From an uncultured Ectothiorhodospiraceae bacterium (GTDB lineage: Bacteria > Pseudomonadota > Gammaproteobacteria > JAABTG01), in the NCBI GenBank assembly GCA_937867305.1, contig CALMKJ010000085.1:1-34865 (forward strand): a DNA stretch of 34,865 nt, written 5' to 3'. The notes under the pieces were generated by a model that ran no database searches, was not told where the DNA came from, and saw nothing but the letters and a program-made list of their open reading frames with translations. Both the position numbers and the translations under genes were made by a program. Numbering within the stretch: the stretch's first letter is position 1; each line of letters starts with the position of its first letter. Below are positions 99 to 7,365 of the stretch, piece by piece.

Positions 99-3415
<3,317 letters not shown>

Positions 3416-4492
3416 TTATACCAGTTCGGTCAGACAGCCTTGTTCCACGTGGAACATTGCGCATGCCGTCCCGGCAGGAAGGGAGAGTACCGAGGGTTCC
3501 AGTACGGTGAGGAAACTCTGACAGCCCGTGGCGCGGATGCCTTCCAGAAGCCACTCCCGTGCGCGGGCGTCGAGTTCCGACGGAAAATCGTCGACGAGCA
3601 GAACGGGTTGGCGGCTGCACGTGGACCGTACGTATTCCACATGGCCGAGCATGATGGCTGCGGCCAGGGCCTTCTTCTCCCCGCGCGACAGCGTCTCCCG
3701 GGCAGCATGGCCCGAGACCTGCAGCGCCAGGTCGGCCAGGTGGGGTCCGTGGCTCGTCCAACCTCGCGCGGCATCCGCGGCCCAGGTACGGTCGAGGGCG
3801 TCCGCCAGCGACTCGCCCGCCGGCCATCCTCTGCGGTAGAGGATCTGCAGAGGTACCCCCGTGAGGCGCGCCAGGGTCTCGCGCACGAATGGCAATACCT
3901 CCTCGGCGTATTTCGCCCTCCAGGCGTCGATGCAGTCGGCCTCCTCGCACAACTCGTGCTCCCACACCGCTGCCGAGCGCCGGGGCGAGCCTGAGCGCAG
4001 GGCTGCGTTTCGCTGGCGGAGGCTCCGGCGGCAGCGGAGGATGGAGGCCCCGTATTCTGGTTCCACGTGGAACAATGCCCAGTCCATGAGCGAACGTCTC
4101 TGGCCGGGCGAACCCTCGACAATCTCCAGACTGTCCGGAGCGAAGACCGCCAGGGGCATGAGCCGAGCAACAACGGCTGCGCCGGGCACGTCCTGTCCAT
4201 CCAGTCGTATACGGGATTCCGGCCCCCCCTTGACCACGCCGATGCGACGCAATGTTCCGGCCGGCTCCAGAACCTCGCCGAAGACACTGAGTTCGGTGGA
4301 TTCCCAGCGGACGAGAGGCTCTACGTCCCGCGACCGGAAGGACCGGCCCGTGCCGAGTACGTGAATGGCTTCGAGAATGCTGGTCTTGCCCGCGGCGTTG
4401 CCGCCGGCAATGACGTTGAGGGTCGGGTGAGGGCGAAGCGAGACGCTCCGGAGAATGCGGAGGTCCCGGACCTCCAGCCGAGTCAGCCGCAC
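3416..4492 (-). CDS. recF: DNA replication and repair protein RecF
   Basis: 358 residues of the SMC-like RecF ATPase, which helps RecO/RecR load RecA at gaps. Walker A is GGNAAGKTS (about 30-38), the ABC-type signature is LSRGEKKALA, and Walker B is VLLVDDFPSELD. The start is GTG, preceded by GAGGA at 10 bases, 21 bases after the dnaN stop. Two 16-bp ParB-type palindromes lie inside the gene (3441-3456 and 4060-4075). Both are read in the same frame and each encodes Phe-His-Val-Glu, once in the middle and once in the C-terminal MFHVEQG motif. Confidence 0.97.
   Translation of the reverse strand: MRLTRLEVRDLRILRSVSLRPHPTLNVIAGGNAAGKTSILEAIHVLGTGRSFRSRDVEPLVRWESTELSVFGEVLEPAGTLRRIGVVKGGPESRIRLDGQDVPGAAVVARLMPLAVFAPDSLEIVEGSPGQRRSLMDWALFHVEPEYGASILRCRRSLRQRNAALRSGSPRRSAAVWEHELCEEADCIDAWRAKYAEEVLPFVRETLARLTGVPLQILYRRGWPAGESLADALDRTWAADAARGWTSHGPHLADLALQVSGHAARETLSRGEKKALAAAIMLGHVEYVRSTCSRQPVLLVDDFPSELDARAREWLLEGIRATGCQSFLTVLEPSVLSLPAGTACAMFHVEQGCLTELV
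3441..3456. other. parS: parS site (ParB/Spo0J binding palindrome), perfect copy
   Basis: TGTTCCACGTGGAACA is a perfect 16-bp palindrome and matches the parS consensus known from Pseudomonas and other bacteria. It lies in the 3' end of recF, about 2.2 kb from the candidate origin, as expected for the ParABS system, whose sites cluster near oriC. parA and parB are not in this window. Confidence 0.88.
4060..4075. other. parS: parS site, one mismatch
   Basis: GGTTCCACGTGGAACA differs from the perfect site at 3441-3456 in one end base; the inner 14 bases are the full palindrome. It lies in the middle of recF, 619 bp from the first site and about 1.6 kb from the candidate origin. Confidence 0.85.
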
Positions 4493-4513: not shown

Positions 4514-5620
4514 TCAGAGCCTCATGGGCATGACCACGTAGCGGCAGGCGGTCTCGGTCTCTGCCAGCAGCAAGCAACTGCTGTTGTCGTCATTGAGGCA
4601 CAGTCGCACGCGCTCGCCCGGGATTGCGGAGACCGCGTCGATCAGATATCCGACGTTGAAGCCAATCACGATGGGAGGCCCCTCGTAGTCCACCTCGAGG
4701 TCCTCCTCGACCTGCTCGTGCTCCGCGTTCTCCGACTGTATTCCGAGCCGTCCGCTGGTCACTGACAACCTCACGGAACGGTACCGCTCGTTGGCGAGGA
4801 TCGCCGCCCGCGAGAGGGCCTGCCGCAACTCCTCACGCTCCACGAGCACGTGTTTGTCCCAGACCTCCGGGTCCGGGATCACCCGCTGATACTCGGGAAA
4901 ACGTCCCTCGATCAGGCGCGCGACCAACCTCAGATCCCCCGTGGTCACCCGAAGGGCCTGCGCCCCGATTTCCAGGGTCGCCTCTTGTGCCTCGCCATAG
5001 CCCAGGCGCATGACCTCACCGACGGCCTTCCGGGGCACGATGGCCTGCAGGATCTCCCCCTGGTTTCCCACGAGCTTCGCGTCGCAGAGTGCCAGGCGGT
5101 GTCCGTCCGCGCCGACCGCCCTGAGCCTTCCCTCCCCGACCTCCAACAAGAGTCCGTTCAGGTAATAGCGGACATCCTGCTGGGCCATCGCGAAATGGAC
5201 GCGTTCCAGCAACGTCTTGAGTTCGGTTGCCGGGAGCGTCACCGTCACCAGGGCCTCGAAGCCCTGGGTGAGAGGGAACCCCTCCGGTTCCAGCGTGGTC
5301 AACGAAAAGCGGGTCGGACCGGACCGGATGGTCGCGCGTCCTCCCGCGGCGGAAATTTCAGCGACCGACCCCGGCGGAAGGCTTCGCCAGATCTCCCAGA
5401 GCTTCCGTGCCGGGATGGTCGTCTTCCCCTCCACCTGGACGTCGGCGGATGCAGTCGCGCTGACCTCGATCTCCAGGTCGGTACCCCACACTGCCACCTT
5501 TCCGGGTGTGGCTTCGATGAGGAGGTTACCGAGGATCGGAACCGCCTGCTTCCGGTCTACCGCCCCGTAGGCCATCTGAAGTGCTGATAGCCAGGCCTCT
5601 CGAGCGATAGTGAGCTTCAT
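4514..5620 (-). CDS. dnaN: DNA polymerase III sliding clamp (beta subunit)
   Basis: 368 residues, starting MKLTIAREAWLSALQ, the usual length of the beta clamp (E. coli 366). The protein forms a ring dimer that tethers polymerase III to DNA. Recognisable stretches are VPILGNLLIEA near the N-terminus, YYLNGLLLEV in the middle, and the C-terminal CRYVVMPMRL, the conserved VMPMRL ending. The frame is open a further 21 codons upstream, but I chose the ATG at 5620 because homologues begin there and AAGGA lies 13 bases upstream. The candidate oriC lies between this gene and dnaA. Confidence 0.97.
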   Translation of the reverse strand: MKLTIAREAWLSALQMAYGAVDRKQAVPILGNLLIEATPGKVAVWGTDLEIEVSATASADVQVEGKTTIPARKLWEIWRSLPPGSVAEISAAGGRATIRSGPTRFSLTTLEPEGFPLTQGFEALVTVTLPATELKTLLERVHFAMAQQDVRYYLNGLLLEVGEGRLRAVGADGHRLALCDAKLVGNQGEILQAIVPRKAVGEVMRLGYGEAQEATLEIGAQALRVTTGDLRLVARLIEGRFPEYQRVIPDPEVWDKHVLVEREELRQALSRAAILANERYRSVRLSVTSGRLGIQSENAEHEQVEEDLEVDYEGPPIVIGFNVGYLIDAVSAIPGERVRLCLNDDNSSCLLLAETETACRYVVMPMRL

Positions 5621-5688
5621 GGGCGTGTCTATTTCCTTAAAGGTATTTAAAGGCTTTAAGAATAGGATCAGTAGGGGCTGCAAAGGCC

Positions 5689-5697
5689 TGTGTATAA
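5689..5697 (-). promoter_or_regulatory. DnaA box TTATACACA
   Basis: Plus strand reads TGTGTATAA, a perfect match to TTATNCACA on the minus strand. It lies between two AT-rich stretches of the dnaA-dnaN gap. Confidence 0.75.
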
Positions 5698-5765
5698 AAT
5701 GCTAAGTCATTGATATTTATAACTTTAATTCAGATCGTAACCCTTCCCGATCCCTGTGGCATGCC

Positions 5766-5774
5766 TGTGGATGA
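5766..5774 (-). promoter_or_regulatory. DnaA box-like TCATCCACA
   Basis: One mismatch from TTATCCACA, same orientation as the box at 5689-5697. A second, weaker copy (GCATCCACA) starts 11 bp further on at 5777, so two sites lie on about one helical turn. Confidence 0.55.
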
Positions 5775-5811
5775 ATTGTGGATGCAGTCCCCCTCGCACC
5801 GAATCCCCAGC

Positions 5812-5820
5812 TTATGCACA
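5812..5820 (+). promoter_or_regulatory. DnaA box TTATGCACA
   Basis: Perfect TTATNCACA match on the plus strand, directly abutting the dnaA stop codon (5821-5823). Confidence 0.7.
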
Positions 5821-7203
5821 TCACGTGCTCAGGGTTCTCACCAGGATCGTGTAGTCCTCGGCCATGCTGGCATCCTGCCCCCGCAGTTCCGCCACCTTCT
5901 TGCAGGCATGGAGCACCGTGGTGTGGTCCCTGTCCCCGAACGCCTGTCCGATCTCCGGCAGGCTGTGGCTCGTGAGTTCCTTGGAAAGCGCCATGGCCAC
6001 CTGACGAGGCCTCGCGACCGACCGGCTGCGCCGCTTCGAAAGCAGGTCGGACACCTTGACCTTGTAGAATTCGGCGACGGTCTTCTGGATGTTCTCCATG
6101 GTGACCAGTTTGTCCTGGAGCGCCAGGAGGTCCTTCAGGGACTCCTTGGCGAACTCCACGGTCACGGGGTGGCCGGTGAACTGCGCATTGGCCAGAACGC
6201 GGCGCAGCGAGCCCTCGAGCTCGCGTACGTTCGAACGGATCCGCTTCGCGATGAAAAAGGCCACGTCCTCGGGGAGGGTGATGCCGGAGCTCTGGGCCTT
6301 GCGCATCAGGATCGCCACCCGCGTCTCCGTGTCGGGTGGCTCGAGGGCCACGGTGAGCCCCCAGCCGAAGCGCGACTTGAGGCGCTCCTCCAGCCCCTCG
6401 ACCTCCTTCGGGTAGCGGTCGCAGGTGAGGACGACCTGCTGCTGCTCTTCGAGCAACGCGTTGAAGGTGTGGAAGAACTCTTCCTGGGAGCGCTCCTTGC
6501 CCACGAAGAACTGGATGTCGTCGATGAGCAACGTGTCCAGCGAGCGGTAGTGGCGCTTGAAGTCGCTGATGGCGTTGTGCTGCAACGCCTTGACCATGTC
6601 GGTGACGAACCACTCCGAGTGCAGGTACGACACGCGCGCCTGGGGGCGATCGCGCACCAGCAGATTGCCAATCGCGTGCATCAGATGTGTCTTTCCGAGA
6701 CCCACGCCACCGTAGATGAAGAGCGGGTTGTAGGAACCGCCGGGGTTCTGAGCCACCTGCAGCGACGCGGCGCGCGCGAGCTGGTTGCACTTGCCCTCGA
6801 CGAAGCTCTCGAAGGTGAAATCCGTCCGCAGGCCGCTGCCGGACTTGTGCGTGGGGCCTTCGGCGCGCCAGCGTCGCGCCGAGTTCTCGGCGGCCCGCGC
6901 GGGCGCCGCGGCCGCGGGCTTCGCCGATGTCTCCCGGGTCTCCGGGGTCGCGCGGGACTCCCGGGTCCCGACGCTGACGGTCACGGACAGGTCGGGGGAT
7001 CCGGCTGCCGCCCGCGCAACCTCGCTGATCCGCTGCGCGAAGTGCTCGCTCACCCAGTCCCGCACGAAGCGGTTGGGGGCGAGCAGGCGCAGGCACGCCC
7101 CGTCCTCCACCGCCTGCAGGGGCCGCAGCCAGGTGTTGAGCTGCTGCTCGGAGAGCTCCGCCTCCAGTTCCCCGAGACAACGCTTCCAGAGACCCGCCTT
7201 CAC
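5821..7203 (-). CDS. dnaA: Chromosomal replication initiator DnaA
   Basis: 460 residues from a GTG start. DnaA binds DnaA boxes at oriC, melts the origin with ATP and loads the helicase. Domain I is recognisable ([21 protein letters not shown]). Domain II is a short Ala/Pro/Thr-rich linker (about 70-120). The AAA+ domain has Walker [10 protein letters not shown] (about 165-173) and Walker [10 protein letters not shown] (225-233). The C-terminal DNA-binding signature is [15 protein letters not shown]. The frame is open 25 codons upstream (another ATG at 7227), but the GTG at 7203 has AGGTGG just upstream and matches where homologues begin. rpmH is divergent. Confidence 0.97.
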
Positions 7204-7365
7204 GGTCCACCTGCCCCCGCTGACCATCCCGTCGCCGAAGTGTACCCCTCGCCCGGGAGGGGTCGAAAGCCCATTCAAGGCTCGTTCGGTTTGACAGGCC
7301 AGGCGGTCAGCGGGTATGTTCCCGCGTCTTGTCCCAGGCTACTGCCCTCTCAGAGCGGTCCCAAC
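7204..7365. other. Divergent dnaA/rpmH intergenic region
   Basis: 162 bp carrying the two divergent promoters. A 6-bp inverted repeat CCCCTC/GAGGGG (7245-7262) lies next to a possible dnaA -10 (TACACT on minus, 7245-7240). I found no DnaA box here, so the dnaA-dnaN gap is the better origin candidate. Confidence 0.5.
7291..7320 (+). promoter_or_regulatory. Putative rpmH operon promoter
   Basis: TTGACA (7291-7296), an 18-base spacer and TATGTT (7315-7320), 46 bases before the rpmH start. The -35 is perfect, the -10 matches four of six. It would drive rpmH-rnpA-yidD-yidC-mnmE. Confidence 0.6.

Follow-up and report, generated by a model that had tools for sequence, protein, structure and literature searches.

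Two parS-type sites inside recF, conserved at the level of DNA across much of the Gammaproteobacteria

Why should the gene for a repair protein carry two copies of the site for the chromosome-partitioning protein ParB? The question is raised by a 34,865-nucleotide stretch of DNA (the window) from an uncultured Ectothiorhodospiraceae bacterium, in which the genes follow the order gyrB, recF, dnaN, dnaA, rnpA, yidC and mnmE, with DnaA boxes between dnaN and dnaA; the gene order around recF is the same in E. coli. The recF gene, which carries both sites, occupies positions 3416 to 4492 of the minus strand, encodes 358 amino acids and was assigned by its Pfam SMC_N/RecF match and by the RecF alignment of relatives. 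The next gene downstream is gyrB (968 to 3382, minus strand; Pfam DNA_gyraseB and GyrB_insert). Upstream lie dnaN (4514 to 5620, minus strand; Pfam DNA_pol3_beta), the start of which we set at the ATG at 5620, and dnaA (5821 to 7278, minus strand; Pfam Bac_DnaA), and the interval between these two (5621 to 5820) constitutes a candidate oriC with DnaA boxes at 5689 to 5697 and 5812 to 5820. At the very start of the contig, about seven tandem CCGGTC-type hexamers (10 to 55) stand directly upstream of a comF-like gene, and this run probably caused the assembly to break there.

Site A, near the RecF C-terminus, was found at 3441 to 3456 as a preliminary description of this DNA had reported; it reads TGTTCCACGTGGAACA and shows no mismatch to the 16-bp parS palindrome TGTTYCACGTGRAACA. 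Site B reads GGTTCCACGTGGAACA on the plus strand and differs from the palindrome at one position. The same description had placed this one-mismatch copy at 4060 to 4075; the copy is real, and its true place is one base to the left, at 4059 to 4074. On the recF strand, site A reads TGTTCCACGTGGAACA and site B TGTTCCACGTGGAACC, and both are read in the same phase: the minus-strand codons ATG-TTC-CAC-GTG-GAA-CAA at site A give M-F-H-V-E-Q, followed by G, and TTG-TTC-CAC-GTG-GAA-CCA at site B gives L-F-H-V-E-P. Translation thus bore out that both sites lie in the recF frame and yield Phe-His-Val-Glu. The claimed match to the ParB site consensus was likewise borne out, sites A and B being identical to parS2 and parS1, respectively, of Pseudomonas aeruginosa. 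The nearer DnaA box (5689 to 5697) is approximately 1.6 kb from site B and 2.2 kb from site A, in agreement with the 1.6 to 2.3 kb to the candidate oriC given earlier. Within the window, no further parS match with up to 3 mismatches was found besides sites A and B, and in shuffled windows (n = 100) 0.06 matches were expected and none reached 2. The exact 14-mer core GTTCCACGTGGAAC occurs in the whole 2.80-Mb assembly (222 contigs) only at sites A and B; eleven other places match it with 2 mismatches, which is not above the reversed-pattern control. A search for all copies, as had been proposed, accordingly returned a pair that is confined to recF and proximal to the origin, with no even scatter over the assembly. 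The DNA surrounding the two sites revealed neither a sigma-70-like promoter nor a terminator.

The arrangement is not peculiar to this genome. Among 95 gammaproteobacterial genomes representing 91 families, which were not chosen by site pattern, the motif GTTYCACGTGRAAC was present in 83, mostly twice, and the reversed-pattern control in 2. From 82 of these relatives, about one per family, we took the RecF gene for codon alignment; the encoded proteins share some 30 to 40% identity with the RecF of the window. Both sites occupied homologous codons in 61 of the 82 genes and one site did so in 12; counted as motif copies per gene, 60 genes had exactly two, one had three, 12 had one and nine had none. 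These nine lacked either exact site although their genomes have ParB. The spacing within the pair was nearly always 606 to 651 bp in steps of three, with two exceptions (547 and 626 bp), among them a gene whose frame is broken. In RecF genes from other classes of the phylum (n = 40), no site was found at either position, and only 1 of the 80 slots came within 3 mismatches of one. The recF parS pair is the ancestral arrangement in most of the class, and we infer that it was fixed in recF early in the Gammaproteobacteria.

Across the genomes that we compared, the sites are conserved at the DNA level where ParB exists and lost where it is absent, with one exception. In 16 named genomes without a chromosomal-type ParB, belonging to the Enterobacteriaceae and their relatives, the Pasteurellaceae and Gilliamella, site B was absent from all 16 and site A from 15, the site-B frequencies being biased because the named genomes were fetched partly by a pattern with FH[VN][EK] at site B. 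The RecF proteins of this set read FHNE, FHHH and similar at site B and FTVE, FRVE, FEV and others at site A. Nowhere in these ParB-less genomes was the motif found, save in Erwinia sp. 198, the exception, which has two exact motifs without a detectable ParB_N domain; one of them is recF site A and the other lies 25 kb off on the same contig. The motif was also found in none of 33 genomes (24 genera, G036 among them) of a further family, in which we detected no chromosomal-type ParB: a single match reached 65 bits and the rest were far weaker, compared with about 115 to 152 bits for a typical chromosomal ParB. This family, the sole one of its order and with large genomes of 2 to 8.5 Mb, forms a ParABS-less lineage besides the Enterobacteriaceae and Pasteurellaceae. 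Among ParB-bearing named genomes, both recF sites are kept in Pseudomonas (save P. fragi, which has lost site B), Pseudoalteromonas, Rheinheimera and a Legionellales bin, and the Pseudomonas genomes that were fetched have them on the same RecF codons as in the window. Pseudoalteromonas and Rheinheimera each have two exact copies of the motif, the recF pair alone. Site A is kept in Aeromonas and Psychromonas.

The preliminary description had predicted a ParABS system with parAB apart from the origin genes. A search with PF02195 (ParB_N) gave no match in the bacterium's own 222-contig assembly and revealed ParB in 91 of the 95 relatives, including a genome of the same genus. The ParB of this same-genus relative (L136, 7992 to 8894) is canonical (ParB_N, HTH_ParB and ParB_C); parA is also present, the order being mnmG-rsmG-parA-parB-atpB on a contig other than that of recF, and both recF sites are kept. 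The relatives thus support the prediction, while the proposed search for parB in the genome itself came back empty. The missing parB is likely an assembly gap, because mnmG and the block homologous to parAB are missing as well: a DNA search with the 8.1-kb mnmG-rsmG-parA-parB-atp stretch of the same-genus relative found no homologue in the assembly, and a protein search with MnmG found no match, both queries being without a positive control. The window contains mnmE, whose product has MnmG as its near-universal partner. As described, parAB is absent among the genes identified in the window. This separation is probably a family trait, since another genome from this family has parB on the contig of its recF sites but roughly 600 kb from them (1737246 versus 2333684), parAB having moved off from the origin genes there.

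The failure to find a ParB_N domain in the 222 contigs would also fit decaying parS relics in a lineage that has lost ParABS. We consider this very unlikely. Read on the recF strand, both sites are exact copies of working parS sequences, and the same-genus relative retains ParB, ParA and both sites. The concurrent lack of mnmG from an assembly that contains mnmE points to a gap; moreover, the sites are visibly broken in nearly all ParB-less lineages.

The strongest evidence that the sequence is maintained as DNA came from the codons. Site B followed the pattern NNG-TTY-CAC-GTG-RAA-CNN in 68 of the 82 RecF genes, and site A did so in 64 out of the 78 that could be aligned there. Where an aligned gene encoded FHV[EK] at the site (B, 70 genes; A, 67 genes), we compared the codons used with the expectation from the same gene's usage. 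His was encoded by CAC in 134 of 137 cases, where 59 were expected (B, 69 versus 30; A, 65 versus 29), and Val by GTG in 135, where 45 were expected (B, 69 versus 23; A, 66 versus 22). Glu or Lys was encoded by GAA or AAA in all 137, with 73 expected (37 for B and 36 for A). The products of the per-gene codon-usage probabilities amounted to 10^-86 and 10^-80, uncorrected for shared ancestry, the genes coming mostly from different families. The codon before the site ended in G in 137 of 137 cases, though it encoded V, L, M, A, T, W, R, K or E, and the codon after it began with C in 137 of 137, though it encoded P, H, Q or R. When 154 conserved RecF columns were scanned, the site columns made up 7 of the top 8 synonymous outliers (the codon before site B being counted). 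The eighth outlier, Ser121 (AGT), was rejected as a codon constraint and ascribed to the split of serine codons into AGY and TCN. Because synonymous codons and flanking bases are held whatever the amino acid, the constraint acts on DNA. It had been proposed to check whether the FHVE codons are conserved beyond the needs of RecF, and this check proved decisive, the synonymous codons being locked across the class. The accompanying idea that segregation site and protein constrain each other survived in a refined form, in which it is chiefly the DNA site that constrains the protein.

Only some residues of the tetrapeptide are required by RecF, namely F-H at site B and F plus V at site A. E. coli and its relatives retain just these and vary the remainder, and many RecF proteins of other classes have an F-x-V-x-x-G-like C-terminus. 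Since ParB-less and other-class RecF proteins keep only some of the residues, the tetrapeptide is part RecF and part parS, and some of the RecF sequence should not be read as RecF function. Conservation of these residues beyond the bearers of parS (FHNE and FTVE in E. coli, FHSE and FHVE in Vibrio) is also what could be expected if the 16-mers were a mere by-product of a conserved FHVE peptide and ordinary codon usage, with no role for ParB. However, this reading is extremely improbable given that the His, Val and Glu codons are locked far above per-gene usage, that the parS base is kept next to the site even though the flanking residues are chemically free, and that the DNA pattern is missing from other classes and, with one exception, from ParB-less genomes. 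Furthermore, the intragenic sites of P. aeruginosa have been recoded without amino-acid change, and the recoded parS1 exhibited reduced ParB binding (PMC4368675), so that in Pseudomonas the role of the DNA can be told apart from that of the protein.

Some lineages carry altered sites. In Vibrio, Photobacterium and Shewanella, exact motifs are found mainly outside the recF sites. Every Vibrio and Shewanella that we examined has a broken site B, one Photobacterium and one Aliivibrio still carry it intact, and site A takes the one-mismatch form GTTYCATGTGGAAC in Vibrio, Photobacterium and Shewanella. The CAT, GTG and GAA codons of Vibrionaceae site A are locked in 12 of 12 genes (log10 P of -11.8, uncorrected for ancestry), and the locked one-mismatch recF site in Vibrio is GTTTCATGTGGAAC. 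These locked codons predict that this form of site A is a weak but maintained parS. All the examined Vibrio recF genes with FHVE at site A (loci L171 to L185) keep TTT-CAT-GTG-GAA. In three other genomes both sites have departed from the consensus: G028 reads GTTCCACATGGAAC at both, with the core CACATG; G007 has GTTTCACATGAAAC at site B and its reverse complement at site A, the cores being CACATG and its reverse complement; and G035 has a GTA variant at both. A shared non-consensus core at the two sites suggests that parS drifts in concert, and in G007 the same DNA variant alters the amino acids differently at the two positions, which argues for selection at the DNA level. The ParB helix-turn-helix residues of these three genomes, compared with the canonical ones, gave no clear specificity signal.

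That the sites instead bind another reader of palindromes (a CACGTG-type regulator or a nucleoid protein) controlling the dnaA-dnaN-recF-gyrB operon has next to no probability in our view, for although they lie inside the replication operon and excess ParB itself lowers expression of that region in P. aeruginosa (PMC5521831), the conserved stretch extends beyond CACGTG to the full parS 14-mer, its loss tracks the loss of ParB, and genes beside the P. aeruginosa intragenic sites are unaffected at the native ParB level (PMC5521831).

Collectively, the two 16-mers are very probably working parS sites of a chromosomal ParABS system, dual-coded in recF; we infer ParB binding and a segregation function here by analogy with P. 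aeruginosa, whose parS1 and parS2 have the same sequences. ParB dimers would load on each site and spread across the flanking, oriC-proximal DNA, and ParA would move the resulting ParB-DNA complex so that newly copied origins separate; the complex may also load SMC. Since fixation of the pair, selection on the DNA site would have held the synonymous codons and limited the permitted amino acids. In the Enterobacteriaceae and Pasteurellaceae the sites were lost along with ParABS, and part or all of their role falls to further parS copies in Vibrio, Shewanella and Aeromonas. We further regard as probable a broader proposal: that recF harbours an ancient dual-coded centromere, fixed early at two codon-precise spots, with both sites retained though one suffices in P. 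aeruginosa, which has dictated RecF residues, has drifted in concert in certain lineages and survives in Vibrio as a locked one-mismatch site. If this is true, having two ParB loading sites next to the replication operon, some 0.6 kb from each other, serves a distinct function.

A 2020 review listed among its open questions the clustering of parS sites, their variable number and the presence of many where a single one often suffices (PMC7333895). The recF pair offers a natural experiment, as most families hold the same two sites in the same gene and ParB-less branches let them decay, and it provides a ready test set for the coevolution of parS and ParB. It can also serve as a simple genomic marker of ancestral parS in metagenome bins without parB contigs. 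More generally, a code for chromosome segregation appears to have dictated part of the sequence of a repair protein.

Intragenic parS1 and parS2 in recF are already known for Pseudomonas. In strain PAO1, the sequences of both sites and their binding by ParB in vitro have been reported (PMC4368675), as has their location within recF (PMC3909081, PMC5521831), and any single one of parS1 to parS4 suffices for segregation in P. aeruginosa (PMC4368675). Sites B and A match PAO1 parS1 and parS2 letter for letter and lie in recF in the same order. However, P. aeruginosa has further strong intergenic sites, parS3 and parS4, as well as weaker ones, whereas the assembly studied here has the recF pair only, and parAB of P. 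aeruginosa is about 7 kb from oriC, whereas in the window it is not in the origin region. The parS clusters on chromosome I of Vibrio and Shewanella belong to the same ParB-parS system, with recF site A as the locked one-mismatch form; unlike in the window, recF site B is broken there and the exact motif lies elsewhere. The class-wide orthology of the recF sites and their codon lock were not found in the literature searched, outside which the Livny 2007 and Yamaichi 2007 surveys fall, and this comparative result may be new. The consensus of the Livny 2007 survey is reportedly tGTTYCACGTGRAACa, in origin-proximal position. Chromosomal parS sites in general, such as the Spo0J sites of Bacillus subtilis and those summarized in that consensus, share consensus and origin-proximal placement with the pair in recF; they form a variable set, whereas the recF sites number exactly two and lie within a gene, with locked codons and orthology throughout the class.
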